Virus record (IMG/VR): IMGVR_UViG_3300017971_000013
Location: 39,596-103,595 of that record
Reading direction: 5' to 3' (one strand)
Length of the DNA: 64,000 bases
Origin: a virus
The first letter of the stretch is position 1. Every line of letters begins with the position of its first letter. A program made the position numbers and the translations under genes. Positions 6,925 to 44,201 of the stretch are shown here, piece after piece. Under the pieces are notes generated by a model. It searched no databases. It saw only the letters and a list, made by a program, of their open reading frames with translations, and was not told the origin of the DNA.

Positions 6925-6982
6925 TGTTCGCGGGGGCGAACAAGGGAAGCAAGCCCTACTTGCTAAGGTCCCTTAGGGGACC
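6925..6982 (+). other. Three consecutive leader hairpins
   Basis: TGTTCGC/GCGAACA (6925-6942), AGCAAG/CTTGCT (6948-6964) and GGTCCC/GGGACC (6967-6982) are separated by 2-5 bases and have loops of 4-5 nt. They form the leader of the gene at 6999 and lack a T tract, so they are not ordinary terminators. Confidence 0.6.
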
Positions 6983-6998
6983 AAACAGCGGAGCTATC

Positions 6999-7235
6999 AT
7001 GGAATTGCTAGCTATCATCATGTTTTCGTTCCTTGGTCTGTTCGTTTCTTCTGTTGTAATTCAGAGCAACCTTGCCGTTGTCGTCGCGGCGACTAATCGT
7101 AAGAACTATCTCGATTTCTGCGAGAATGTAGATAGCGAGCTGAAAGCTATTCATAGACAAATGTACGTAGACGAGATTGTCGCTGAAAGCGACATTTACG
7201 CGGCTGTTGATTGTTTGGGTCTGAGACTACGCTAA
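6999..7235 (+). CDS. Small membrane protein, hypothetical
   Basis: 78 residues from ATG 6999 (GGAG at 6990-6993). Upstream in-frame ATG 6924 is rejected because the extra 25 codons cover the hairpin leader. Residues 4-32 are a single hydrophobic span (LLAIIMFSFLGLFVSSVVIQ and on), followed by a soluble charged tail, so it is probably an inner-membrane protein. Its stop codon lies within the tRNA-like minihelix at 7228-7272. Confidence 0.7.
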   Translation: MELLAIIMFSFLGLFVSSVVIQSNLAVVVAATNRKNYLDFCENVDSELKAIHRQMYVDEIVAESDIYAAVDCLGLRLR

Positions 7236-7272
7236 AACGGTTTTAGGGCGGTTCGATTCCGCCCTTAGCGTA
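7228..7272 (+). ncRNA. tRNA-like minihelix (acceptor plus T-arm only)
   Basis: TACGCTAA (7228-7235) pairs perfectly with TTAGCGTA (7265-7272). Inside, GGGCGG-TTCGATT-CCGCCC (7246-7264) is a T-arm with the conserved TTCGA loop. Only ten bases separate the 5' acceptor strand from the T stem, so there are no D or anticodon arms. This is the minimal shape recognised by RNase P and tRNase Z. No CCA is encoded. Confidence 0.5.
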
Positions 7273-7274
7273 TA

Positions 7275-7323
7275 CCTCTCAATATGGGGTTGAGAGGAAA
7301 CACAACGGCGCTGAATAGGCGCC
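7275..7323 (+). other. Two hairpins with 7-nt loops
   Basis: CCTCTCAA-TATGGGG-TTGAGAGG (7275-7297) and GGCGC-TGAATAG-GCGCC (7307-7323) follow the minihelix immediately and precede the gene at 7342. Confidence 0.6.
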
Positions 7324-21666: not shown

Positions 21667-23427
21667 ATGCCGTTAAGTACAAATAACATTTCTATTCCAG
21701 ATGGAGGCGCTGGCGGACCTACTACTGCAAATTTAGTTACTTGCGACACTACAAACTTCAATAACAACCTCAGCGCGGCCGATGTCAATGTCCAGTTGGC
21801 CTTAGAGACTTTGGACGATATGGTGGCAGGCGGCGCGGTTGAGGTACAAGATGAAGGTGTTGTAGTCGTACCAGCAGCGCAGGTGATCAATTTTATTGGT
21901 GCCGATGTGTTAGCTGTACAGAATGGCGGAAACCCGAATCAGGTTGACGTCTATATTCCTGCAATTACTTTTCAACCTTTCTATAATCAATCTAATCCGT
22001 CAGGTAATGCGGTAGTACCGAACATACCTACATCAAATAGAAACATAGCAGATCCAGCGCCTGCTAATAATTTTGATATAGGTTCATGGGTGCCAGGTTC
22101 CGTACACCCAGCTTCAAATGATGGCACTACAGGTTACGCACATGCAGATCCTTGTAGTTTCATTGATTTAACAACTACGGTTGAGGTTACTGTTTATGAT
22201 GCAGATGACGTAACTCCTCTGGCTAATTACATAACGCCTGCTATAACAGGCAATATTGTGCTTCCTTCAGGGGCAATAACGGTCACAATTTCTAACTGGG
22301 CACCTGATTCAACTCAATGGCAAGCAAATATTGATGTTGATTTAAATCTTCCTCTGTTAATAGCAAATGGAGGTAGATACTCTGTTGAAATTGTGCATCA
22401 TAATGCAGGTACAGATTACACAAAAACACAAGGCCCGTTATTTTATGATGCAGAAGCGTTTGCTGCTGTGTTGGCAGGTGTAACGATAGCTGAGACTCCT
22501 GGTTTCGTAGTAACTAGGTTTATTTCAGGTGTTGAATATTATGACACGGGGTCAGATTTTACTATTGACATAGCTGACATTGATTACACCAACTCAGATT
22601 CTTACATAGCTGCGGATTTGATCGAATGTAATGGTGTTGAATACGGATTACCCACATTAACACCTGGAAGTGTTGATCTTACGGGCTGGGCAGGCGCGTG
22701 GGATGTCAATAACATGACTTACAATAATACGGTCTGGGAAATTACAGCCGTAAACTTCTTCACAGCTACAACTACCGCCAATGTATCTTCCAGAACTTTA
22801 GATTGGATAAATGGCGCGTGGGTAAATTCTGCAAACGCATCAATTCTTATTGATACGCATACAGATGTTTCTACTAGGTTGATTGAGCGTTTCTATGATG
22901 AGCAATGGCGTTGCCCTGTAACAGGCAACTTTGATTTGCCAGGACAAAGATCGTGGGATTCTACCATAGATGTTTTGGCTACGGACGCTGTTTTTTACAA
23001 CGGCGGATGCGAGAGAAATGTAACTGATTTTACTATCTATGATCCAAATGCAGCCTCACAGCCAGATTATTCAGGGGCTTTTATGGATCCTATCGTGTAT
23101 CTCTATAGAGAATTCATGCACGATGGGGCAGCTTCTTCTGGGTTCACATTAAATATAGCGGGCACCTATACGTCCCTAGAGATGAAACTGGCGGCCGCTT
23201 GGGATGGAACACCTGGAGGGGGTACTGTTTGGGTAGATATGTTAGCGGCGTATAATGCTGCGCAATGGAATAATGGGAATCCATTAGCAGGTACTGGTAG
23301 CTGGACAGGTGCCGCTCATTATACCTTCGGTTCGAATAACATTGTTAACACTGGAGACACACTCTACCTCCGTATAGGTTTTTCAGCTGGAGAAAGAATC
23401 ACCGCTCTCAGTGTGACTTTTGATTAA
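21667..23427 (+). CDS. Tail fibre or adhesin protein, 586 aa
   Basis: 586 residues, beta-rich and low in Lys/Arg, as usual for phage adhesins. The N-terminal 55 residues carry a module shared with the protein at 32929 (DTTNF, then DVNVQ, then ETLDD), a segment common near the N-termini of phage fibres and probably used for attachment to the tail. The rest shows repeated Thr/Asn/Trp-rich sandwiches. Receptor binding is inferred from context: the first of nine fibre-region genes. Confidence 0.7.
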   Translation: MPLSTNNISIPDGGAGGPTTANLVTCDTTNFNNNLSAADVNVQLALETLDDMVAGGAVEVQDEGVVVVPAAQVINFIGADVLAVQNGGNPNQVDVYIPAITFQPFYNQSNPSGNAVVPNIPTSNRNIADPAPANNFDIGSWVPGSVHPASNDGTTGYAHADPCSFIDLTTTVEVTVYDADDVTPLANYITPAITGNIVLPSGAITVTISNWAPDSTQWQANIDVDLNLPLLIANGGRYSVEIVHHNAGTDYTKTQGPLFYDAEAFAAVLAGVTIAETPGFVVTRFISGVEYYDTGSDFTIDIADIDYTNSDSYIAADLIECNGVEYGLPTLTPGSVDLTGWAGAWDVNNMTYNNTVWEITAVNFFTATTTANVSSRTLDWINGAWVNSANASILIDTHTDVSTRLIERFYDEQWRCPVTGNFDLPGQRSWDSTIDVLATDAVFYNGGCERNVTDFTIYDPNAASQPDYSGAFMDPIVYLYREFMHDGAASSGFTLNIAGTYTSLEMKLAAAWDGTPGGGTVWVDMLAAYNAAQWNNGNPLAGTGSWTGAAHYTFGSNNIVNTGDTLYLRIGFSAGERITALSVTFD

Positions 23428-23430
23428 ACG

Positions 23431-23646: not shown

Positions 23647-25505
23647 TGCCTTTCTCTGACGAGGAAATTCGCGTAAAATCTGATAAACTTTCTTTGCAGA
23701 TTTCAGGAGGCGCGGATCAGGCTCCAGGAAAAAAGTTCTGGTATAATGAGGAGCATCCTTGGTCTCCTATTGTTGTACCTGATAACATTTGGTCTGATTT
23801 TGCTACAATACCTCCAGCTACAACGCCAGCTCAGGCAGATGCAAATGCTATAGCTAATCCCACTATTATTGAAAGGTTGGAAACCAGGTTAACTAACAAT
23901 CCAACTAGCAATAATAGGCAATATGAAGCTAGACAAACTTATGGTGATCGGACCAGTGATATTTATGTCAACTGGATCCAGCCTGCTCTCGTTAGAGATA
24001 GCGGTGCGCCCTCAAACGGATACATCATCCGACTGTATAATGGTGATCCCTCTGGAGGCGGTGTAGAGTTACCAACTACTTGGAATGGTGGTCCAGATGG
24101 TGCCCCCTCTTGGGAATGGAATTACTCTACTGGTGTTTTAAAGGTTTCTACTGATCAATCTGCAAACTATGGTGCTATAGATGCTGGCGCCGGTTTATGG
24201 GTTCAGGGTTTCAGATATATCGGGCCTACAGGAGGAGGTGCTTCCACTGTTGCAAGCACACCTAAAAGACTTGGCGCAATTGATATAGATGGCGCAGTTA
24301 ACCTAGTAAATACAGATTATGTTTTGTACACTGTTCCAGCAGGGTCTTATGCATTATCTGCCTTTGTTGTTGTGTGTAACAGAAACGCGGCGTTGGCAAC
24401 AACTGTAAGAATTGCACATTCTGTGGCTGGGCCACTAAACAATGAAGATTACATATTTTATGATGTAGATGTGCTAGCTTACGAATCTAAATTCATTTCT
24501 ATACCAGGCATGTCTGCTGGTGATTATATTACAGTAAGAGCAGATACTTCTGATACGGATTTTATGATTCGTGGTTTTGAAGATGTTGGAACTGCGCCTG
24601 TTCAACGCATAGCAGCGCTTGCCACAGATATAGGAACCAGAAATACAGATCTCCAAGCCTACTTAAGTACACAGGATTCTAGTGATGTTAAATACTACAT
24701 TTGTAATCATAATGGTGCTTTAGCTACGCGCGTGCGCGTGGCGCATATAGATGATGTTGTTGTTGGTAGTTTACTACCAGAGGACTACGAACTATATGAG
24801 GAAGAATTAGTAGCCACTGAATCTAGAGGATATTGTACTGGTCTTCAAATGTCTGCTAATCAGACTTTGATGTTTCGCGCAGATGAAGCAGATGTGAACA
24901 TTGTTGTTTATTGTTCATTTGGAGGAACGGGTGGAGGCGGTGGAGGAGGTGTTTCTTTATGGCAAGAAATAGGTACCGACTTAAGTCCTCTAACTCCAGG
25001 TAACAATGTGACTGTTCCTGGCGCAAGGCTGACTCTAGGTGATGATGTAGATCCTCAATTCTTTGAATCCATCACACAAGCTTCAGGCCAAGCTACCCAG
25101 GTTGGTGACAGCCAATATGAACGTGTTGTCTGTTATGGTGAGACTTTTGATGCGGCCTGGACAGTTCTCTATCCAGGCGGCAATGCCGCTAACAATTTGA
25201 CTTTAGTTGCAGGTTCATCTTATACTTGCAGGGTTCTTGTAACTGGAGTTCAGTACGGCGGCATTTTAGGGTCTCAGTATGATACTTGGGCATATGAATT
25301 GATAGGAAACATTGTGCTGGCCGGAGGTGTCACTACAATGCATTCTTATATCTCAAATACAATATTTGAAGCAGATAATACCTTTGATGTGCAATTAGTT
25401 GCAGATGACATCAATGATGCAATTCAGGTCCAGGTTAGAGGCGGTGTTAGTAAGTCCGTGCGATGGACCGCCGTTGTTGAACTTATAAATAGTTATGGTG
25501 GCTAG
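23646..25505 (+). CDS. Tail fibre protein with duplicated domain, 619 aa
   Basis: 619 residues. An N-terminal part with EEHPWSPIVVPDN and a Tyr/Trp-rich section is followed by an internal duplication: a segment with RIAHSVAGPLNNEDYIFYDV and later a related segment with RVAHIDDVVVGSLLPEDYEL, each about 70 residues and beta-rich. A Gly-rich linker (GGTGGGGGGGV) precedes the C-terminal domain. No enzyme motif is seen. Probable host-binding protein. Confidence 0.7.
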   Translation: MPFSDEEIRVKSDKLSLQISGGADQAPGKKFWYNEEHPWSPIVVPDNIWSDFATIPPATTPAQADANAIANPTIIERLETRLTNNPTSNNRQYEARQTYGDRTSDIYVNWIQPALVRDSGAPSNGYIIRLYNGDPSGGGVELPTTWNGGPDGAPSWEWNYSTGVLKVSTDQSANYGAIDAGAGLWVQGFRYIGPTGGGASTVASTPKRLGAIDIDGAVNLVNTDYVLYTVPAGSYALSAFVVVCNRNAALATTVRIAHSVAGPLNNEDYIFYDVDVLAYESKFISIPGMSAGDYITVRADTSDTDFMIRGFEDVGTAPVQRIAALATDIGTRNTDLQAYLSTQDSSDVKYYICNHNGALATRVRVAHIDDVVVGSLLPEDYELYEEELVATESRGYCTGLQMSANQTLMFRADEADVNIVVYCSFGGTGGGGGGGVSLWQEIGTDLSPLTPGNNVTVPGARLTLGDDVDPQFFESITQASGQATQVGDSQYERVVCYGETFDAAWTVLYPGGNAANNLTLVAGSSYTCRVLVTGVQYGGILGSQYDTWAYELIGNIVLAGGVTTMHSYISNTIFEADNTFDVQLVADDINDAIQVQVRGGVSKSVRWTAVVELINSYGG

Positions 25506-25506
25506 T

Positions 25507-26745
25507 ATGCAAAACAATGTCCAAGGAAAGGTCGTTGGCTTGGGCGGTAATTTGCCGAGCCACGTAAGACTGGAACCTTCTTTTCATGATCATTGTAACT
25601 GCAGGGGTTGGACTCCTGCAGCCCTTGGGTCTGGAAATAGTTTCCTTAATAGGTTTTGGAATAGGGCAAACACTGATTGGAACAATCATTGGAAATATAA
25701 ATGGTGGGAATTCTTTCCTCAAGGAGGTACTGTAGATCCATTTGGTCCAAGAAGGTTTGATACCACTGTTGAACTTGCTAATTACCTAGCTGATAACCTA
25801 CCGATGCTTGCTGGCAATTATGATGATGGTGTGAATGTGCGGTGTTATGATGCCGTAGATTATGCTGATTCATTTCCGCGCATAAGAATTGTTCGCAATT
25901 CTATTATAGGCTCGGTTAGAGGCAGGCGTAGATGGTTAGTAGGCTTTAGCTCCGAAACTTGTGGTATTTCTTCGGGCTTTAATGCCCCTAACTATTATGC
26001 AGGTGGCTTTCCTGGTAACACGGGTCGTTTGTTTGTTCAGAAATATACAGGCTTTTTACCAGGGACAAATAACGATGACGTTGTGTGGGCTACGAGGAAG
26101 AAACGCACTATGTGGTCGTTCCCTAAGGTAGGTAATCTGATTCAAGACTTACCCCCTGGAGCAAGAAGGGCTGCGTGGAATACAAACACTTTAAATTGGG
26201 TGACTCCAGCTCCTCAGCTTAGTTACGCATTTCAAAATCCTTTTCTGTGGTATGAAAACTACTGGGGCGGGGTTTTGGCTGTTGGTTATCCTAGTGACTT
26301 AGGTCAATCTTACAGAGAGGCTGTTCTTAATGGACCAGCAGCACTTGTGTTTCCTGTAGTCTCTGGGGATCATGTCGCTTTTGCTGTTTATCCAATGGGT
26401 TTTGATACTTTTTACACGGATAGACTAGGTACAGACGAAGAGCTTATCACAAAAGCAACCTTTAAAAGACAATCAACTCCAAGATACAAAGTTCTAACAT
26501 CTTCAAGCGTCGATCGTGATGTTGAAATGTTCCACACCGGAGACGGTGGAGGAAATCATTTTATGCAGTCAACGGATTGGCCAAACTCAAGCAATGATGG
26601 TATACGTGTACCTCATAAGGTGTATGTAGCTAAACGTAACACTGTGACAGGTGTGCGTTCAAAATGGGTTAAATTAGGAATCTTTCATCATCGTGTTCCT
26701 CATTCATCCCATAGGTTTGATCCAGCCTATAAATGGACAGGATAA
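25507..26745 (+). CDS. Receptor-binding protein, paralogue of the 27275 gene
   Basis: 412 residues from ATG 25507; ATG 25495, overlapping the previous stop, is an alternative. It shares blocks with the C-terminal half of the protein at 27275, including RGRRRWL versus KGRRRYL and PGTNNDDVVWATRKK versus PGSNEENIVWFSRNI, followed by similar spacing. It is rich in Trp, Tyr, Asn and Arg. The shared domain is probably a host-binding unit. Family unknown. Confidence 0.65.
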   Translation: MQNNVQGKVVGLGGNLPSHVRLEPSFHDHCNCRGWTPAALGSGNSFLNRFWNRANTDWNNHWKYKWWEFFPQGGTVDPFGPRRFDTTVELANYLADNLPMLAGNYDDGVNVRCYDAVDYADSFPRIRIVRNSIIGSVRGRRRWLVGFSSETCGISSGFNAPNYYAGGFPGNTGRLFVQKYTGFLPGTNNDDVVWATRKKRTMWSFPKVGNLIQDLPPGARRAAWNTNTLNWVTPAPQLSYAFQNPFLWYENYWGGVLAVGYPSDLGQSYREAVLNGPAALVFPVVSGDHVAFAVYPMGFDTFYTDRLGTDEELITKATFKRQSTPRYKVLTSSSVDRDVEMFHTGDGGGNHFMQSTDWPNSSNDGIRVPHKVYVAKRNTVTGVRSKWVKLGIFHHRVPHSSHRFDPAYKWTG

Positions 26746-26755
26746 GATTCAGATG

Positions 26756-26769
26756 TTGCCAACTGGCAA
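26756..26769 (-). repeat. Palindrome family copy (TTGCCAACTGGCAA)
   Basis: Perfect 6-bp arms. The flanks (TG before, TGTT after) fit the family best on the minus strand. Confidence 0.7.
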
Positions 26770-26788
26770 TGTTTGATTCCCCGTGAGA

Positions 26789-26875
26789 GGGGCTGCTATG
26801 TAGTAATGCAGCCCCAACGGGGTCACTTTGTAGTAATGTGGCCCCAAAGGGGCTGCCTTGTAGTAGTGCAGCCCC
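26789..26875 (+). repeat. Three tandem hairpins, 30-nt period, covarying stems
   Basis: Hairpins start at 26789, 26819 and 26849. Stems are GGGGCTGC/GCAGCCCC, GGGGTCAC/GTGGCCCC and GGGGCTGC/GCAGCCCC. The loops TATGTAGTAAT, TTTGTAGTAAT and CTTGTAGTAGT are nearly constant. Two pairs change together in the second copy (T-A to C-G, G-C to A-T), so the stem is under selection. There is no T tract. Confidence 0.8.
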
Positions 26876-26877
26876 AA

Positions 26878-26927
26878 TGAGATGCCTCTAAAGGAGAGCC
26901 AGCCAGGTTCGATTCCTGGGCATCTCA
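26878..26927 (+). ncRNA. tRNA-like minihelix, second copy
   Basis: TGAGATGC (26878-26885) pairs with GCATCTCA (26920-26927). A small hairpin CTCT-AAAGG-AGAG (26886-26898) and a T-arm CCAGG-TTCGATT-CCTGG (26903-26919) lie inside. There are no separate D and anticodon arms, and no CCA is encoded. It follows directly on the tandem hairpins and may be an RNase P or tRNase Z processing signal. Confidence 0.55.
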
Positions 26928-26954
26928 CTTTTGTGTTTCACTAAGAGGAATGTA

Positions 26955-27278
26955 ATGAAAGAATTACAGGTTAGAGGCACTACTGGTCAAAGACACTCTG
27001 GTGGGCAGCAAAACACTACGTCTGTATCCACCTTGACTGTGGCAGATTATGATTTAACTGATATGCGTTACGGGGGAGAATTCCTCCTTACGCCAGACGG
27101 TTCTTCTACTTTGTTAGAGTTGCTTCAGGCCGAAGCTCCTTGGGATTTGATGGAGACTTATACACTGGAGGAGCCTCCAGAAGATAATCAGTTAAGTTTA
27201 GCTGTGGTACCTTCGGCCGGTGCCACTGTTCGTGTTTTGTTGACTGCACGAATTGATTGTCAGGATCCTGTAACATGA
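26955..27278 (+). CDS. Small structural protein, paralogue of the 37992 gene
   Basis: Start ATG 26955 after AAGAGGAA. 107 residues. The segment GGEFLLTPDGSSTLLELLQ is similar to GGDVVLDADGTKNILELIQ in the protein at 37992, and both end in a Val/Thr strand region followed by a late Cys. It overlaps the next gene by ATGA. Both copies flank fibre genes, so an adaptor or chaperone role is possible. Confidence 0.65.
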   Translation: MKELQVRGTTGQRHSGGQQNTTSVSTLTVADYDLTDMRYGGEFLLTPDGSSTLLELLQAEAPWDLMETYTLEEPPEDNQLSLAVVPSAGATVRVLLTARIDCQDPVT

Positions 27279-28987
27279 TTGAAAGCACAAAACCTAATAT
27301 AGATTTTGCGGCAAGAGACACAGCTTTTTTGACTATGTCAGCGCCGCAGAATGCTAATCTAGCTGTCGGAGATCATGTTGAATTTAACTTAGTTGAAGGA
27401 AACATCCCGTTATCTGTAGGAGCCGGACAGGCTAACGGTGTTTTGACTTTAACTAACAGCAAAAAATATAAACTAGAGGCCAATGTCTCTTGTGCGTTCG
27501 GCGCAACAAATGATTCGTGCTCATTTGTCTGGTATGACACAACAAACAACACTGAGATAGGGAAAAGGTCTGATTGTTTCTCTGTTTCTGGTTCAGCTAC
27601 AGAGAGTTCTGTCAGCACCGTGCGCGCGGTGGTAACGCCAGGGGCAGACATAAACGTAGAGCTTAGAATTATCGCTGTCAGCGGTACTGTTACACTCATT
27701 TCTAACTCCTTTGCAAATGGGTGGGTAGAGAGCTTAGAGGCGTATATAAATGTAGTGCCAACTTTTGATGTTCATGTTCCCACTATAGAATATGACACGT
27801 TCACTGTTGGCATACACGACTCTACAAACTGGTCTGGTTCTGCTTTTGATTCTTTGGCGGATCGTCAAGCGGCAGATATAAACAGAAATTTCTCTAACTA
27901 CACACAATGTTTTTGGCGCTTGTATGAAAGAGAGGTAGGCACTAACCTTTTGGTTAATTACTGGGAAGGTTTGCAATTTGCCTCTATTGCCGCTCTTTAC
28001 ACCTTCATAAGAAATAACTGTGTAGAAAGTGGGACGGCTCCAGGGACACCAGCCAATGATATCATCGCTACTGCTTATGATATCATTGATGACACGGTAC
28101 AGCGCGTTAACCGTATTTATGGCCTGAATACTTTTCTTGCTATATTGAAAGGTCGGCGCAGGTATTTGTCATCCAACTTTGATGAATGTGTTTTAGACGA
28201 AAATCTGTGTTCGTGGGGACAGCTTGGTAACTGGATTGATGATCTGAATGCCAACGCGCCTGGGTGGCTTAATCCACTTTCGTCTTGGGCTCCAGGTTCT
28301 AATGAAGAGAATATTGTTTGGTTTTCAAGGAACATAAAGAAACTTTATGGGCTTCCAAACATCTCTACTGTGTTTATGAATCTGACTGCTCTAACAAATA
28401 GACGTGTTTGGGATTGGGGTGCGTCTGCTGTGGTCGCAGCCCCTCTTGGTGGTTATCAGGGCACAGGGCCGAGCGGAGAGCCTAAGATTTATTGTTCGTT
28501 GGATATGCCTACTCAAACGTGGACGTTTTTTGACACTACGTTGAGAGATCATTACGTACAGCAGTTTAACGGAGATAAATCTATTATAGTGCTTTATCAA
28601 CTGTCCAGTACTGCCGATCCGAACAAAAGAGCTGTCTTAGCAAAGCCTCTTGGTATAGATAGGGTTTCGATTCCTTGGTTTGATTCTTCTGTGTATGACT
28701 TATACGCTCTGTATAATCGTAAGAATCAGACACACAATATTCGCGGTCCTTTGACTAGTACCTTCGAAGATGTTATAGCTAATAAGAAGTGGGTGTTGAA
28801 AGATCAGTGGATGCATCCTTCTAAGTTCGATACTAAAGCTTCTGCAAGAATGGTTGGTACTCAAGAGTACACAACTAGATTCTTTTTGCGGCATAAATCT
28901 ACAGGGCGTATCTCAAAGCCTAGCAGCGCCAGAATAGTATGTGCCCAGAGGCACAGAGACGCTATGTTTAAATTTGAGGTACGTTAA
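27275..28987 (+). CDS. Tail fibre with jelly-roll-like N-terminus, 570 aa
   Basis: 570 residues from ATG 27275 (ATGA). Residues about 20-160 look like a TNF/C1q-type jelly roll common in phage fibres (VGDHVEFNLVEGN, GVLTLTNSKKYKLEANVSC, a late WVESLEAYINVV). The C-terminal 300 residues are homologous to the protein at 25507. The pair looks like a duplicated receptor-binding domain with different N-termini. Confidence 0.7.
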   Translation: MIESTKPNIDFAARDTAFLTMSAPQNANLAVGDHVEFNLVEGNIPLSVGAGQANGVLTLTNSKKYKLEANVSCAFGATNDSCSFVWYDTTNNTEIGKRSDCFSVSGSATESSVSTVRAVVTPGADINVELRIIAVSGTVTLISNSFANGWVESLEAYINVVPTFDVHVPTIEYDTFTVGIHDSTNWSGSAFDSLADRQAADINRNFSNYTQCFWRLYEREVGTNLLVNYWEGLQFASIAALYTFIRNNCVESGTAPGTPANDIIATAYDIIDDTVQRVNRIYGLNTFLAILKGRRRYLSSNFDECVLDENLCSWGQLGNWIDDLNANAPGWLNPLSSWAPGSNEENIVWFSRNIKKLYGLPNISTVFMNLTALTNRRVWDWGASAVVAAPLGGYQGTGPSGEPKIYCSLDMPTQTWTFFDTTLRDHYVQQFNGDKSIIVLYQLSSTADPNKRAVLAKPLGIDRVSIPWFDSSVYDLYALYNRKNQTHNIRGPLTSTFEDVIANKKWVLKDQWMHPSKFDTKASARMVGTQEYTTRFFLRHKSTGRISKPSSARIVCAQRHRDAMFKFEVR

Positions 28988-28997
28988 CAGTGTTTTG

Positions 28998-29084
28998 GCG
29001 GTTCGCTCGATTAAAGACGAACTGCGTTAGGTTCGCTCGATTAAAGACGAACCGTATTTGGCCCGCTCGATTAAAGACGGGCCA
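28998..29084 (+). repeat. Three tandem hairpins, 30-nt period, conserved loop
   Basis: Stems GTTCG/CGAAC (29001-29022), GTTCG/CGAAC (29031-29052) and GCCCG/CGGGC (29061-29082) are each extended outward by 1-3 pairs. All three loops are CTCGATTAAAGA. In the third copy two T-A pairs become C-G on both sides, direct compensatory change. Confidence 0.85.
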
Positions 29085-29092
29085 CATATTCC

Positions 29093-29141
29093 AATAATTC
29101 CCCTCTTGTGTAACTTTCTCCTACATGAGAGGGGAATTATT
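29093..29141 (+). terminator. Long 14-bp stem, possible terminator
   Basis: AATAATTCCCCTCT (29093-29106) pairs perfectly with AGAGGGGAATTATT (29128-29141). Only a short ATTT follows, so it may terminate weakly or protect RNA. From 28988 to 29219 there is no gene. Confidence 0.5.
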
Positions 29142-29219
29142 ATTTCCTGCCCTTCTATCTGCTTGCTATTCCTATCCCTTGTAGATTCTTCTAGCTTTAT
29201 AAAAAAATTGAGGGTTAAT

Positions 29220-32009
29220 ATGTCTAACAACACTGGAAGTATAACTTCAAGCGAGTTATTTGGTGCTCCTGCTTCTGGCTCTTCATCTTCCTCTATTTGG
29301 GATGCTGATGCGGATACAGGCGTTGATGTTGAGGCAACACCGGATAATGATACTATCTTTGGGTATACAAATGATGGCGCGGGAAATCCCTTAGCTCGGT
29401 TTTCCATCTCTCAGCCAGGCGAAGCATCCTTTGGACAGCTTGATGGTCGGGTGGGGACCGAGTTTTTTAATGTCTTGGGTGGGGATACTTTAGGCTTAAG
29501 CGCTGGTTTGCTGTTAGATGCTGTGGATGGTGCAGGCGGCGGATACGATGCTTTTTTAGCCATTGATAGTGATTTAGCTGGTGGTGGTAGCTCCGCAGCC
29601 GTGATCTTAAGAAACAATGGCGGAAACTCTGTGGCTTGGACAGCGCCATCTGTCGCTCCAGGTTCCGACTTGTTTTTTGCTCTACCAAATACGCAAGGCG
29701 CAAATGGCCAGGTATTAGCTAGTAATGGTGTTGACAGCACTTATTGGACTACTGTTGCCACTTCAGGTATTTGGGACACTGATGGTGATACAGGTATAGA
29801 TTGTGAACGTACTCCAGACGTAGACGAGATTTCTTTTTATACAGGAGATCCGTCTGTCGAACGAATGCGTTTGGGTGGTAACGGTTTACGTATTGAGCCT
29901 GGTTCTGTGTCTGGGACTGCTACAGAGATTTTAGAGATACAAGGTAGTTCAATTGGCGGAGATATTCGTGCCAAGGCAACAAATATTTTAGGTCTGCCAA
30001 CTCAACCAGGCACAGCTGGTTTAGATATGGATGTTTCTGGGCTGGTTGGTTCTATTTACATGTCTCGTAATGATGGCTTGTGGCTAGAATCTGATGGGAC
30101 AGCCTTAGGACGTCAGGCGCCTATTCATATGTCTGTAGATTCTACAGAGATTGTGACTGTTAATTTTGATTCCGGTTCTGTTCCTGGTTATTTGGGCTTG
30201 AGTCAATATGGTGCTGGTGCAGGTGAGAAGTCAGAGCTAAGGTTTTTTCTGGGAGATGTTAGCTCTAATTATGTTGGTTTTAAGGCGCCGGATGCAATAC
30301 CTACTTCTGAGATATGGACATTACCAGCGGCGGATGGAACACCTGGTCAGGTTTTATCTACCAATGGCGCAAATGTTTTATCTTGGGTTGGAGGCGCAGC
30401 AGATTCAGATTGGTCTGGAGCAGCTACGGGTATGTTATATCCGACCAACATTACAGATAATGTAGCTATAGGAAACGCGACGCCAACATATACAAATCGT
30501 GGTTTGTGGGTAGAAAATGCTGGAGCCTATGGAGGTTCAGCACAGTTAAGAGGAAGCGCAGCTAGGCTCGAACTTTTTTCTTCTGGTAATGCTGCTGGTG
30601 CCAGAGCCATGGATATTGTTGGCTATTCTGACGCTTATCATATACGGCTGTTAGATGATGGCTTTAGCACACAATCTGCTGGCATTTTGTTGTCGGCATC
30701 ATCTTTTATTTTAAATGACAACTATGCTGATGTAGATACTCAGATTTTTGGAAACTCTGGTTTGGTTCCTCGTGTGCATGCTGATGGCGCGACAAAGACA
30801 GTTGGTATAAATACTGCTACTCCTGGATCTCAGCTACATGTGACAGACGATACTGCTTGTGGTGTTTTGGTCTCTGCTTTTGGAAATGGAGCAGGAGATT
30901 ATCCTTTTTGGTTTATGTATCGTGGCAGGAATGTTGAGGCCGCGCCCAATTCTGTGCTGACAGGAGATATTCTTGGCAGCGCCGATTTTAGAGCTTTTGA
31001 CGGTACAGGAGCAGGAGACGCTGGTTATATTGCTATGTACGCCAATGAGGATTGGTCTACTGGTAATACTGGATCCAGGTTAGTTTTAGCTACTACAGAA
31101 GATGCCAATGCTACTTCTGTTGAGAGAGTTCAGATAGATGATGATGGTGTTGTTCAGGTTTTAACTAATTATATAGATGTGCATCCGAAAGGAACGGCAG
31201 CTGGTGATGGTGGGACGGTACGTTTTAGAGAATTAGCAGCAAGCGGCACTGATTATGTAGGGCTTAGTGGGCCAGATGCAGCAACAGCAACACAAGACTA
31301 TAAACTACCGCAGAACTATCCTTCTGTGGCAGGAGATGCTCTCACGTGTGATGGTTCAGGAAATATGGGGTGGGCAGCAAGAGACTTGCGATGGTCTGCA
31401 ACTGCTGCTGGAACCTGGGCATCTACTAGCACATTTACTGTCACTGATAACGCCACCAACCAATCAATCTTTGCAACTGGGCGTCCAATCAGATTTAGAC
31501 AAGCTGCAGGTACTTGGCGTTATGCAATTATTACTGACTACACAACAGGGACAATAACTGTTGCTGGTCATCCGATTACAAATGCTGCCGAAATGACAGA
31601 AATGGAATGGGGTAACTTTGATCGTGTTCAGACCCTTTCTTTTGCTATTAATGGCGAATTTGCGGATGGCGCAAGCACTTCTCTGATTGAAGATGATTTA
31701 TTTACTTTCTTTAAATGGACGATGGCTAAGGCTTATTGTGTACTCATTAGCCATCGTGTGACAGACGTGGATACAGGCGCATCGCAGCCGCGTGTTAACT
31801 TAAGAGTGAACGGTCAGCCTGTTTCAACTTCTAATACTAACGCAGGACGAGATGTTTCTACTTCGTGGGTAGATACTGTTGTAGACATCGCTGTAGCTAA
31901 TTATGATATTAACTGGGGAGAAGCTATAGAGATTTCTACTGATGCTAACGGTACAAATAATGATGCCAGAAGTCTGTCACTACAGGCCACCTTTGTATTT
32001 GAGGATTAA
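29220..32009 (+). CDS. Large tail fibre protein, 929 aa
   Basis: 929 residues from ATG 29220 (GAGGGT upstream); the frame is open from 29058 but that part covers the hairpins. Repeated units with SSIWDADADTGVDVE and SGIWDTDGDTGIDCE and later PGQVLSTNG are typical of long repetitive phage fibres. Composition is Gly, Ser, Thr, Asp and Ala rich. The C-terminus has a TNF-like beta region. Probable trimeric side fibre. Confidence 0.75.
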   Translation: MSNNTGSITSSELFGAPASGSSSSSIWDADADTGVDVEATPDNDTIFGYTNDGAGNPLARFSISQPGEASFGQLDGRVGTEFFNVLGGDTLGLSAGLLLDAVDGAGGGYDAFLAIDSDLAGGGSSAAVILRNNGGNSVAWTAPSVAPGSDLFFALPNTQGANGQVLASNGVDSTYWTTVATSGIWDTDGDTGIDCERTPDVDEISFYTGDPSVERMRLGGNGLRIEPGSVSGTATEILEIQGSSIGGDIRAKATNILGLPTQPGTAGLDMDVSGLVGSIYMSRNDGLWLESDGTALGRQAPIHMSVDSTEIVTVNFDSGSVPGYLGLSQYGAGAGEKSELRFFLGDVSSNYVGFKAPDAIPTSEIWTLPAADGTPGQVLSTNGANVLSWVGGAADSDWSGAATGMLYPTNITDNVAIGNATPTYTNRGLWVENAGAYGGSAQLRGSAARLELFSSGNAAGARAMDIVGYSDAYHIRLLDDGFSTQSAGILLSASSFILNDNYADVDTQIFGNSGLVPRVHADGATKTVGINTATPGSQLHVTDDTACGVLVSAFGNGAGDYPFWFMYRGRNVEAAPNSVLTGDILGSADFRAFDGTGAGDAGYIAMYANEDWSTGNTGSRLVLATTEDANATSVERVQIDDDGVVQVLTNYIDVHPKGTAAGDGGTVRFRELAASGTDYVGLSGPDAATATQDYKLPQNYPSVAGDALTCDGSGNMGWAARDLRWSATAAGTWASTSTFTVTDNATNQSIFATGRPIRFRQAAGTWRYAIITDYTTGTITVAGHPITNAAEMTEMEWGNFDRVQTLSFAINGEFADGASTSLIEDDLFTFFKWTMAKAYCVLISHRVTDVDTGASQPRVNLRVNGQPVSTSNTNAGRDVSTSWVDTVVDIAVANYDINWGEAIEISTDANGTNNDARSLSLQATFVFED

Positions 32010-33265: not shown

Positions 33266-35086
33266 ATGGCACTTAGCTCTACTTACAAACAGCATAATTA
33301 CCTTGGTGAATATGCAAATGATGCCGCAGCTCTAACTTTTCTTCAGGCGTGTGAATGGGATACTAATTCAGACGGAACTGGTAACCCTAGAAACGGTATG
33401 TGGTACTATGATAGTACCAATAATAAATTTCGTGCCTATATAAATAGCGCTTGGGCCGATATGGATACGGGAGCGGCTATTGTAGATAGACAGGATGTCT
33501 ACGATCAAGACCCGGCGGTTCTAGTAACCGCAGCTGGTGGTGCGCACGGCGCAACACTGAACGACAATGGCGCGGAATTTGAAATTGGCTCTGGTGGCGC
33601 TGACCAGTTTAATCTGACACGCTCAGCGCTCGGTGAAATAACCGCTGATTGGGATCTAGAATCTATTGACGCGGATGTGGCCGGGGATGTCGCCATTACG
33701 TCTACAGGCGGCAATGCGACGTTTGAAGGTGACTCAGATGTCACTCTTCAATCTACCAGCGGCTCTGGCCGTGTGTTGATACAGGCTGGCGGTGGCGATA
33801 TTGACGTCGATGCCTCTCAGATCACCCTTGACGCGGGCTCGAATTTCAGCATTGACGCTACTGGTTCTGCGTCGAATGTCAGCTGTTCTGGTGGTGACCT
33901 GACTGTCTCTGCTACTGGTGCAGGTAATGACTTGTTGCTTTCGTCAGCTGCCGCAGAGGTGGATATCACTTCTGGTACGTTGATGGACATTAATGCTGGC
34001 GCTAATTTAGATATGGATGTCACAGGTACGTGTGATATCGATTCTACAGCTGCTATGACGTTGACGGCAGCAGGCGCGGCGCTTAACCTTGTTACTACAG
34101 GTTCTGGTGATGTTGTTCTGAACGCGGCTGATGATATCGATGCCAACAATAACATTATCAAAAACGTTGCTACGCCCACGGCCGGTTCTCATGCAGCTAA
34201 CAAGAGCTACGTGGATGCTGCTGTTAGTGGTTTGCAGTGGCTAGAACCAGCAGATGTAAAGGGCTATATTGGTTCTAGAACGATCGCAGAAATCAACGCT
34301 CTCACACCGAGCGCTGGTGATGCTGTTGTTGCAGCTTCTGCTGGTACACCTACTGCAGGTACTTCAGATGCTTTAGCCATTGGTGATATTGCAGAATATG
34401 ATGGCACTAGCTGGCTACAAATTGTAGCTAACTCTGGTGGTTTTCCTCCTGCAGACACTCGGGCGCTTGTTGCCGATGGTGCCGCTACTCTTTATGCTCC
34501 TCTTACTGATAATACGGACGAAGGTAAGGTTGCAGAGTGGGATGGCACCTCTTTAACGGCTACACTTGATACACCTGATGATGGTGATGCTATTTTGATT
34601 AACGGAGAAGGTTCTGTTAATGAGAATAAGCAATTTGTATTTGATGGTTCTGTGCCCACTGGAACGTGGGTGCAATTTGGTGGCACAGGCCTGGCACATA
34701 GTTCTTTATCGGGATTAACTGCTGGCGATGACCATACCCAGTATGCTCTGCTTGCTGGCCGTGCAGGCGGACAGACTCTTATTGGTGGTACTGCTGCCGG
34801 TAATGACCTGACTCTTACTGGTTCTTCTGGTGGTGGCGGTACTATCATTATGTCTGATGATGTAGACATGGGTGGTAGTCAGCAGATTACAAATTTGCAA
34901 GCGCCAGCAGCCAACGGAGAAGCCTTGCGTTATGAAGACTCGCCTATTGTGTCCACTAATGCTGGTCCCCCTGAAGGTTCTGTCACGGCCACTAAAAATG
35001 GCGATATTTGTGTAGATACTACAAATAGTCTTGCTTATATTAAGACTTCAGGTGGCGCTACTAACACAGGCTGGGCTGTGATGTAA
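33266..35086 (+). CDS. Tail fibre, 606 aa, paralogous N-terminus with 35166
   Basis: 606 residues. The first 70 match the start of the 937-aa fibre: STYKQHNYLGEYANDA versus STYKQHNYMGEYADDA, and both have GNPRNGMWYY. The middle (about 90-290) is a repetitive Ala/Thr/Asp beta-helix-like region. The C-terminus has the fibre motif HSSLSGLTAGDDHTQYALLA and GRAGGQTLIGGTAAGNDLTL. The N-terminus probably docks on a shared site. Confidence 0.8.
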   Translation: MALSSTYKQHNYLGEYANDAAALTFLQACEWDTNSDGTGNPRNGMWYYDSTNNKFRAYINSAWADMDTGAAIVDRQDVYDQDPAVLVTAAGGAHGATLNDNGAEFEIGSGGADQFNLTRSALGEITADWDLESIDADVAGDVAITSTGGNATFEGDSDVTLQSTSGSGRVLIQAGGGDIDVDASQITLDAGSNFSIDATGSASNVSCSGGDLTVSATGAGNDLLLSSAAAEVDITSGTLMDINAGANLDMDVTGTCDIDSTAAMTLTAAGAALNLVTTGSGDVVLNAADDIDANNNIIKNVATPTAGSHAANKSYVDAAVSGLQWLEPADVKGYIGSRTIAEINALTPSAGDAVVAASAGTPTAGTSDALAIGDIAEYDGTSWLQIVANSGGFPPADTRALVADGAATLYAPLTDNTDEGKVAEWDGTSLTATLDTPDDGDAILINGEGSVNENKQFVFDGSVPTGTWVQFGGTGLAHSSLSGLTAGDDHTQYALLAGRAGGQTLIGGTAAGNDLTLTGSSGGGGTIIMSDDVDMGGSQQITNLQAPAANGEALRYEDSPIVSTNAGPPEGSVTATKNGDICVDTTNSLAYIKTSGGATNTGWAVM

Positions 35087-35165: not shown

Positions 35166-37979
35166 ATGGCTCTGACTACGTCTTCGACATATAAACAGCA
35201 TAATTATATGGGCGAATATGCTGACGATGCGACAGCATTAACGGCCATTAGAGATCAAAATTGGGATTCAAACTCGAATGGCACAGGTAACCCCCGTAAT
35301 GGGATGTGGTATTACAATACAACGTCCAACGTTTTCAGAGCTTATACAAGTGGTGCGTGGGGCAATTTAGGAGGAGGGGGTTCTCCAGGAGGTGCGGATA
35401 CTCAACTGCAGTATAATAATAGCGGGGCATTTGGAGGAGATGCTGATTTAGCATGGGACGATACAAATCATTTTTTGCAGCTTGGAACACCAGCTCTGTT
35501 AATGACAGGTGGCCACACAACGCAAGACACCTACGTTAGCGACGGTGCTATCATCGTTAACACAGCGAGTGTAGGGTCGTCTTATCGGTCGATGCGTTTT
35601 CGGTGTGATTCCGTGATAAACAACTCGTCTCTGGCCAACATCCCGGATGAGGTGTATTGTGATATATATCCGCACGCGACGAACGGTGGCATGAACATCT
35701 GGGGGTTTAGTAACGACGCAGCCACAAGCCATGGTCTGCGGCTGCACGGACACTCACAGGTTGAGGATACGACGACAACTACTTCATCAAACGGGGTGGT
35801 TGAGCTGTATGGATCTCGTGGTTCGTTGAGTACAATTAGCGACTCTGGAAACATACTGAGTATCGATAGCGGCGGAACCAAATTTCTCATGAAGGGCGAC
35901 GGTGCTGTTCGTGGGTTAGGTTCATGGACGATAGGGTATGGAACAACATATGACGATAACCCTGGTACAAATGCTGACGGTCTCACACTTCATCAAGGGA
36001 TAGTTGACGCCTTTACATATGATGATCCTATTCTGGTAATGCGCGGAAATGGGGTATCAACCGGACTGACGGCTGCTACGTATAGAAATACTACGGAAAC
36101 GTACGCAAGGATACTCCAGGCAAACAAGAGAAATGGTGGCGCTCAGTTGGACGGGTTTGCTGAGACGTCGGCAGGTTTGGTCGGTATCAGGCTGCGGGCA
36201 ATCAGTGGACTGGCATCATCAGACCCATCAGCTGCTGCACCATTGGACTTGCAGTGTATGGAGAACTCTGGTGCAACATCTGGTACAGCAATTGCGGTTG
36301 GTGAGAACCTCGTTCGTTTCAGCGGGTTTAGTAATGCTACGTATTATGCATTCCAACATCGTAAGGCTTGGTGGCCAAGCGTCAAGTTAATTACAGGTGA
36401 TATTGGACTGACGTCAACTTATGACACTGTAAGTGACCGTGGTATATCAATCTATACAAACGGATTGGACAACTCCTTCGAAACATTTGCTCCGAATGTG
36501 GCAACAGGTGTGACGGAGATTGATGGGTCGGCATCTAGGGCTATCGATACGAGGACTACGTATTGCCTTCAGCAGCATTCTTCAAGTGCTGGCGGTACTC
36601 GCGTCATTGGACTGTCTGACCAAACTTATGGACTTTCATTAGAGGGAATTGGAAGGTCGGCATCATCGACTATAAGTACAGCATCAGAGGGTCCGATTTC
36701 GCTGCGCGGTCACAAGTGGGATAGCGTCGACACCAACACGTCACTTGCAGGTACTGAGGTGTGTTTCACGATTCGAAACTACACCACGACTCGCGCGGTA
36801 ATGACTGGAAACGGCGACTGGTTCTTCAGCGGCAAGATCTCCATCGATGAGAGCGGCAGTTTTGAGACCGCTCCAGATGTAGACTCCGGAGGTCTTTGTT
36901 TAAACCACGGTGCAAACGATGGGAATGTATTAACGTTTAAGAACTCTGATGTGAGCGTGCCTTACACCTCCGTTGTTGAAGCTGATACTTACATGGAGGC
37001 GCATAAACGTAGCGGCGATTATGGAGGGGCTATTTTCAGAGGCTACGCGGATTCAGGCACAGAGCCTGGTATGACTATACATGGCTTTTCTGTTACACCT
37101 TCAACTAGTGTAACTTCTACTACTGCTCAAGGCTGCACTGTTCTTAGAAGCTCTATGTCTGACGGTGGCACAGGGATTCAAGATGTGGACGATAACAGGT
37201 TGATGGTAACTATTCGTAACAGAGATACAAATAAGATCCAAATAGTAGGCGATGGATCTATGTACTTTGTAGATACCGATGCTGTTATTTCTACAGGAAA
37301 TGAAGATAGCCCAGATTGCTCGGGCGGAGGTATTTGTTTAAATCAAAACGCAGAAGATACTGATATTTTGACGTTTAAATCTTCTGATGTTGCTCATGGT
37401 ATGACAAACATTGCTGAGACTGATACTTATGGAACTTTTGCTAAAGGCAGCCCTGCTGCCGGAGCCTTGCGTTTAACAGGTTTAGCAGATTCTGCTCTTG
37501 CTATAGGAATAGCTTTACGTGGTTACGGAGGCACAACTGATAATACCACGGGTTCAGCGGCAATAGGTGCCATCACACTTGAGGGTGCATATGCTAATGG
37601 AACCGGTGTACAGGCGGTAGGAAATACAGATAACGTCTTCGTTGTCCGTAATAGAAATAGTTCGGAATTGATGTTAAAGGGCAATGGAGATCTGTATACA
37701 CAAACGGGCACAGGTGGTCCTTATGATGATGAGAACGATCTTGCGTTAGCCGAAGCAGCAAAATATGAAATGGCAGGATGTTATGATAGGATAACTAAAA
37801 AAGATCAAGAGAGGTTGCACGAATTAGGTATTATGAAAAATGGTTATGTTTGCCACCAAAAAATGATGGCGTTGCAACTAGGTGCATTTGGTCAGATTTG
37901 GAATGTTTTAAAAGGTTTAGCTGAAAAACTTGGTTTTACAGATGAGGAGCTTTTGGCCCTAACTAAGAATTATTCGTAA
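35166..37979 (+). CDS. Large tail fibre, 937 aa, mosaic
   Basis: 937 residues with the same N-terminal docking module as the fibre at 33266, followed by NNSGAFGGDADLAWDD, a common fibre linker. The long middle (about residues 115-570) is beta-rich. At DNA level it uses more TCG, CGG and ACG codons than the ends, as if acquired separately. The repeated unit LCLNHGANDGNVLTFKNSD and ICLNQNAEDTDILTFKSSD lies near 580-740. The C-terminal 90 residues are helical (AEAAKYEMAGCYDRITKKDQ). Confidence 0.8.
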   Translation: MALTTSSTYKQHNYMGEYADDATALTAIRDQNWDSNSNGTGNPRNGMWYYNTTSNVFRAYTSGAWGNLGGGGSPGGADTQLQYNNSGAFGGDADLAWDDTNHFLQLGTPALLMTGGHTTQDTYVSDGAIIVNTASVGSSYRSMRFRCDSVINNSSLANIPDEVYCDIYPHATNGGMNIWGFSNDAATSHGLRLHGHSQVEDTTTTTSSNGVVELYGSRGSLSTISDSGNILSIDSGGTKFLMKGDGAVRGLGSWTIGYGTTYDDNPGTNADGLTLHQGIVDAFTYDDPILVMRGNGVSTGLTAATYRNTTETYARILQANKRNGGAQLDGFAETSAGLVGIRLRAISGLASSDPSAAAPLDLQCMENSGATSGTAIAVGENLVRFSGFSNATYYAFQHRKAWWPSVKLITGDIGLTSTYDTVSDRGISIYTNGLDNSFETFAPNVATGVTEIDGSASRAIDTRTTYCLQQHSSSAGGTRVIGLSDQTYGLSLEGIGRSASSTISTASEGPISLRGHKWDSVDTNTSLAGTEVCFTIRNYTTTRAVMTGNGDWFFSGKISIDESGSFETAPDVDSGGLCLNHGANDGNVLTFKNSDVSVPYTSVVEADTYMEAHKRSGDYGGAIFRGYADSGTEPGMTIHGFSVTPSTSVTSTTAQGCTVLRSSMSDGGTGIQDVDDNRLMVTIRNRDTNKIQIVGDGSMYFVDTDAVISTGNEDSPDCSGGGICLNQNAEDTDILTFKSSDVAHGMTNIAETDTYGTFAKGSPAAGALRLTGLADSALAIGIALRGYGGTTDNTTGSAAIGAITLEGAYANGTGVQAVGNTDNVFVVRNRNSSELMLKGNGDLYTQTGTGGPYDDENDLALAEAAKYEMAGCYDRITKKDQERLHELGIMKNGYVCHQKMMALQLGAFGQIWNVLKGLAEKLGFTDEELLALTKNYS

Positions 37980-44063: not shown

Positions 44064-44201
44064 ATGGGTAATACTGGTGGTCGTCGACGTGGTCCTGGTG
44101 TGACGGCACGTCGGACCGGAACGCGACGCGCACGCGGTGGACGAGGAACTCGAGCACGAGGTGGCCGAGGAACACGCGCCCGCGTAGGACGTCGTCGTTA
44201 A
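44064..44201 (+). CDS. Arg/Gly-rich protein, 45 aa
   Basis: 45 residues with a perfect site (AAAGGAGA). Nearly half the residues are Arg and a quarter Gly, with a duplicated unit (RGGRGTRA and RGGRGTRAR). The composition resembles RGG boxes or protamine-like DNA-condensing peptides. It sits directly before the terminase, so a DNA packaging or condensation role is plausible but unproven. Homologues may be hard to find because of low complexity. Confidence 0.75.
   Translation: MGNTGGRRRGPGVTARRTGTRRARGGRGTRARGGRGTRARVGRRR

Follow-up and report, generated by a model that had tools for sequence, protein, structure and literature searches.

In the 64,000-nucleotide window analysed here (bases 39596-103595 of the 103,595-base virus record IMGVR_UViG_3300017971_000013 of IMG/VR), two arrays of tandem hairpins make up a pair that is genuine, well formed and apparently undescribed, and each is linked to one of two paralogous genes, A and B. 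Array 2 (28998-29084) stands just downstream of gene B, and the sister array 1 (26789-26875) follows gene A. In both, stems that have changed on two sides carry a loop that is constant, in array 1 partly so, as in multivalent loop-binding RNAs of the CsrB or coat-protein-hairpin type, and a terminator-like hairpin follows array 2. The pattern of substitutions supports RNA-like rather than DNA-like elements. We tentatively propose, with somewhat less than even confidence, that the arrays are multivalent loop-binding RNA elements regulating the A-B region in cis. This would be their most economical use, with which a role as decoy RNA and one in passive stabilisation of the message compete.

Hairpins with paired stem changes

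The initial annotation had described three tandem hairpins with an invariant loop at 28998-29084, and both the sequence and repeat finders confirm them. The copies, at 29000, 29030 and 29060, follow each other with an exact period of 30 nucleotides (nt). Their 12-nt loop, identical in all three copies, starts at 29006, 29036 and 29066, and it occurs exactly three times in the whole record. The hairpins of array 2, written as 5' arm, loop and 3' arm, are:

28998..29025, + strand, hairpin 1: GCGGTTCG - CTCGATTAAAGA - CGAACTGC
29030..29053, + strand, hairpin 2: GGTTCG - CTCGATTAAAGA - CGAACC
29059..29084, + strand, hairpin 3: TGGCCCG - CTCGATTAAAGA - CGGGCCA; two pairs changed on both sides

The stems, of 6 to 8 base pairs (bp), are GGTTCG/CGAACT with a GC/GC extension, GGTTCG/CGAACC, and GGCCCG/CGGGCC with a T-A extension. 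The compensatory change from GTTCG/CGAAC to GCCCG/CGGGC reported earlier is thus real: U-A has become C-G twice, on both sides, one further pair has become G-U, and 18 of 18 cells are paired. Variable columns number 0 of 12 in the loop, 5 of 12 in the stem and 5 of 6 in the linker (loop versus linker, Fisher P=0.0007), and therefore the loop is the constrained part of this array. The fold of 28980-29160 is better than any of 200 shuffles (z=-7.45), and the array folded alone gives z=-4.2. Its minimum fold consists of the three hairpins (-38.3 kcal/mol), while the centroid of the ensemble pairs copies 1 and 2 into a rod.

Array 1 has the same copy number and 30-nt spacing, with a different loop:

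26789..26815, + strand, hairpin 1: GGGGCTGC - TATGTAGTAAT - GCAGCCCC
26819..26845, + strand, hairpin 2: GGGGTCAC - TTTGTAGTAAT - GTGGCCCC; two pairs changed on both sides
26849..26875, + strand, hairpin 3: GGGGCTGC - CTTGTAGTAGT - GCAGCCCC

The identical geometry attributed to the two arrays holds for period and copy number, but not for the hairpins themselves, array 1 having a stem of 8 bp and a loop of 11 nt. This loop has a constant core, UGUAGUA, and varies in 3 of its 11 columns. Hence, of the suggestion that each array is part of a defined system in which the loop sets specificity, a defined element with a constrained loop is retained for array 2, and the loop of array 1 is less constant. 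The fold of array 1 is far better than its shuffles; a nested rod, in which copy 1 pairs with copy 3, is slightly more stable (-53.5 kcal/mol) than the three hairpins (-49.9 kcal/mol). Rods are possible because the stem is the same in two copies of each array, which can pair with each other, and co-transcriptional folding would be expected to favour the local hairpins.

Each array has two stem pairs in which both partners are altered and still pair, and a third pair that has changed to G-U. Under random substitution, the four changes between copies 2 and 3 of array 2 would all keep pairing with P=0.012, and full pairing would be kept in array 1 with P=0.0037. Shifting the partner by one to three columns destroys the pairing in both. 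A column-shuffle control, which is weak with three rows per array, reaches the observed pairing value in 42 of 500 (array 2) and 56 of 500 (array 1) trials. Furthermore, both one-sided stem changes give a G-U wobble on the + strand, which is the strand of the genes, and an A-C mismatch on the other; since they are G-U on the + strand only, a + strand RNA is favoured.

Genes A and B and their surroundings

Both arrays lie in non-coding gaps of the fibre region, where the initial annotation had placed them, and the gene directly upstream of each is one of the two paralogues. The surrounding features are:

25495..26745, + strand: gene A, 416 amino acids (aa), a distant paralogue of gene B with a basic C-terminus; located before array 1
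26755..26770, + strand: one copy of the dispersed palindrome, GTTGCC-N4-GGCAAC, 3' of gene A and 5' of array 1
26879..26927, + strand: tRNA-like element with a 7-bp acceptor-like helix (GAGATGC/GCATCTC) and a T-arm (CCAGG-TTCGATT-CCTGG), lacking D and anticodon arms
26955..27278, + strand: small gene, 107 aa, between array 1 and gene B
27275..28987, + strand: gene B, 570 aa, fibre-region protein, basic C-terminus; array 2 follows
29093..29141, + strand: terminator-like 20-bp hairpin and then an ATTT tail, directly after array 2
29220..32009, + strand: gene C, 929-aa fibre-like protein, 3' of array 2 and of the terminator-like hairpin; start chosen by inspection from GAGGG before ATG

Array 1 starts 43 nt past the stop codon of gene A, and array 2 starts 10 nt past that of gene B. 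The two proteins are 20% identical over 214 aa (E=4e-7) and are the only ones of their kind in the record. The net charge of their last 60 residues is +7 (A) and +9 (B), as against +1 to -9 in seven other fibre-region proteins tested, and both are within the five most basic C-termini among the 29 + strand open reading frames of 350 aa or more that the record contains. A, the small gene at 26955, B and C have no match in Pfam, nor any toxin-like or defence match in PADLOC. The AlphaFold model of A is unusable (predicted local distance difference test score, pLDDT, of 28). Elsewhere in the fibre region, paralogous N-terminal segments are common to the genes at 33266-35086 and 35166-37979, and to those at 21667 and 32905.

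The hairpin at 29093-29141 is probably a terminator or an RNase III site, at which the transcript would end downstream of array 2. No such hairpin follows array 1, so that tandem repeats with a terminator-like hairpin are found at array 2 only. The tRNA-like element directly after array 1, which is not called by ARAGORN, may possibly be a processing site. A second element of this kind, at 7229-7271, likewise has an acceptor-like helix and a T-arm with a TTCGATT loop, lacks D and anticodon arms and is not called by ARAGORN. Two to three short hairpins are clustered near it, at 6925-6982 and 7275-7323. A normal tRNA-Leu(TAA) is present at L012:16017-16100. No promoter-like site was found near the arrays.

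The palindrome GTTGCC-N4-GGCAAC has 29 sites in the record with at most two mismatches, compared to 0-4 in shuffled sequence. Examples are at 23430, 26755, 33227, 51100, 57690 and 62101, and several sites are 13-50 nt before gene starts. It is nearly absent from the relatives checked and resembles a dispersed operator or stoperator. A different kind of repeat, with a 24-nt tandem unit, lies at 44126-44191, ahead of the terminase gene, within a short reading frame rich in Arg and Gly.

Searches for related arrays and genes

The phage is contractile-tailed, with terminase, portal, major head protein, sheath and tape-measure genes recognised by PHROGs. Its head protein shares 66-74% identity with the head proteins of some uncultured phages, and about 40% with those of Streptomyces phage BRock and a Bacteroides phage. 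For the region 26700-29300, blastn found no relative in 50,697 phage records; the array 1 stretch matched the T-arm of actinophages only, in unannotated stretches or tRNA genes, and not the array. A detector for three tandem hairpins with a common loop and paired stem differences was run on 3.44 Mb of other viral DNA, drawn from about 20 capsid relatives, BRock, a Bacteroides phage and a faecal phage, in complete form or in large part. No comparable array was detected, and shared loops of at least 11 nt on such stems occurred only in the two arrays of the window. Such arrays therefore do not commonly arise by accident in phage DNA, and in the relatives that were scanned both the arrays and genes A and B are absent. 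The inspected matches of the detector in capsid relatives were mostly collagen-like G-X-Q coding repeats, and otherwise a repeat judged to be coding by eye; in L157, L160 and L184 such G-X-Q repeats are long, and their DNA forms many nested palindromes.

The loop-gap-loop pattern of array 2 has no further occurrence in IMG/VR and none in 84,980 prokaryote genomes (GTDB). The exact loop with its closing pair matches three times in IMG/VR; all three matches lie in other phages, within terminase-like genes in a stretch that encodes ..SIKDG.., and we attribute them to chance. The loop 1 pair pattern gave 95 stretches, coding repeats among them, of which the detector scored none as such an array. 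Genes A and B have no relatives by protein, two-sequence profile or PDB searches of the collections used, and gene C has none in the fetched relatives. No family of Rfam 15 matches at E<=1 (cmscan), and no description of such arrays was found in the literature. As the collections may omit records very near the window, this rarity does not amount to uniqueness.

Possible roles and known systems

In the reading that we favour, the A-B region would be transcribed through, and both arrays would be untranslated + strand RNA elements of it. Each would show one loop three times and so offer a multivalent landing site to a single partner acting in trans, which could be an RNA-binding protein or a complementary RNA. 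The sole job of the stem would be to present the loop, and the three copies would provide avidity. Binding might then regulate in cis how stable the mRNA is, how it is translated or how A and B assemble locally. Speculatively, the first candidate partners are the A and B proteins themselves, the basic tails of which could allow autogenous control. An elaborate version, in which each paralogous structural protein has its own cognate array in an orthogonal loop code, and both A and B bind only the RNA from their own genes and thereby control or localise the assembly of two related tail parts, seems quite improbable. As to the RNA-level regulation of fibre choice that the initial annotation considered possible, A and B share only 20% identity and show no sign of alternating with each other.

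Several points weigh against cis regulation by loop binding. The evidence comes from one genome, with three copies per array and no relatives, and the covariation shuffles are only suggestive. The loop of array 1 is only partly constant, so that its constraint is less clear, and the most stable fold of that array is the rod, with the three hairpins second. The basic C-termini were noticed post hoc and are weak evidence, three other reading frames of the 29 being as basic; an RNA-binding domain was not recognised in A or B. Moreover, array 1, with its distance from gene A and a dispersed palindrome in between, could instead belong to the 5' end of the next unit.

The same hairpins could be passive elements at mRNA 3' ends, which delay exonucleases and stabilise the messages of A and B, the likeness of the loops reflecting recent tandem duplication. 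Their location just past stop codons, the strong GC-rich stems and the terminator-like hairpin after array 2 would all fit. Recent duplication does not readily explain why linkers and stems of array 2 have diverged and its loop has not, a barrier has no need of a fixed loop, and the loops differ between arrays of equal period and copy number; we regard this explanation as rather unlikely. As a decoy or sponge, an array and its terminator would give a short RNA with three loops that titrate a host factor (a defence nuclease, an RNA-binding protein or a small RNA), comparable to the titration of ToxN by phage pseudo-ToxI repeats. The tRNA-like element after array 1 could serve as its processing site. 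Within the record, the best antisense match to loop 2 is 8 nt, and that to loop 1 is a single 10-nt match, about as expected by chance, in the sense strand of another gene; as loop 2 has no antisense match of at least 9 nt elsewhere in the record, any partner RNA would be the host's. Against a decoy stand the lack of promoter-like sites near the arrays, the single hairpins in place of 36-nt pseudoknots, the absence of any Rfam match at E<=1 to a type III antitoxin RNA (ToxI, CptI or TenpI), and the absence of an adjacent toxin-like or defence gene by PADLOC or Pfam, and such a role appears unlikely.

That the dyads are used as DNA, in recombination, replication or as operators, is quite improbable. 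They are intergenic, in the fibre region and identically spaced by 30 bp; however, a DNA-binding protein would conserve the arms, which here change in a paired manner, and the G-U wobbles point to one RNA strand. The recombination between fibre genes considered earlier, and likewise the target-site hairpin of a diversity-generating retroelement, is disfavoured because the two arrays have no common core and no serine recombinase or resolvase, tyrosine integrase, reverse transcriptase or Y1 transposase (Resolvase, Phage_integrase, RVT_1, Y1_Tnp) was detected in the record, which may be incomplete. The 30-nt period also equals 10 codons, and each array has an open + strand frame. By script translation and inspection, that of array 1 is gene A read past its stop (RGCYVVMQPQ RGHFVVMWPQ RGCLVVVQPQ). 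Short coding repeats are nonetheless highly improbable, since the stem changes alter amino acids while pairing stays; in addition, the frame of array 1 has no start with a ribosome site, and array 2 is closed in the frame of gene B.

Two arrays of equal period and copy number, with different loops and each tied to one paralogue, constitute a natural experiment on loop specificity. Discovery of a partner protein would add a new RNA-binding pair, usable in the manner of the MS2 or PP7 hairpins; should a host factor prove to be the partner, the arrays would be a new phage decoy. To our knowledge, the late, structural part of tailed-phage genomes has so far yielded few structured RNAs with a clear unit design.

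Among known systems, the sponge RNAs of the CsrB/RsmZ type repeat one loop motif on several hairpins and bind many copies of one regulator. Their loops carry GGA and bind CsrA, whereas those described here are UGUAGUA- and CUCGAUUAAAGA-like and have no Rfam match. REP/BIME and similar hairpins of 3' untranslated regions are intergenic, GC-rich and located after stop codons, as are the arrays; REPs have conserved arms and many dispersed copies, in contrast to two loci only, conserved loops and variable arms here. A CRISPR array was rejected, given linkers of only 3-6 nt versus spacers of 20-40 nt, without a record-wide search for cas genes. ToxI and phage pseudo-ToxI of type III toxin-antitoxin systems (PMC3475682) are similar in being multivalent RNAs of tandem short structured repeats in phage, and different in consisting of 36-nt pseudoknots without paired stem changes around a fixed loop; the ToxI system also has a toxin gene, toxN, and none was found here with Rfam and PADLOC. 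The last comparison is with the TwoAYGGAY RNA motif. It consists of two tandem hairpins with common AYGGAY terminal loops, and we know of no function for it. The motif is named in PMC2864571 and in Rfam; our arrays differ from it in having three hairpins, other loops and no Rfam match, and they resemble it in the tandem arrangement of hairpins with a common terminal-loop sequence.
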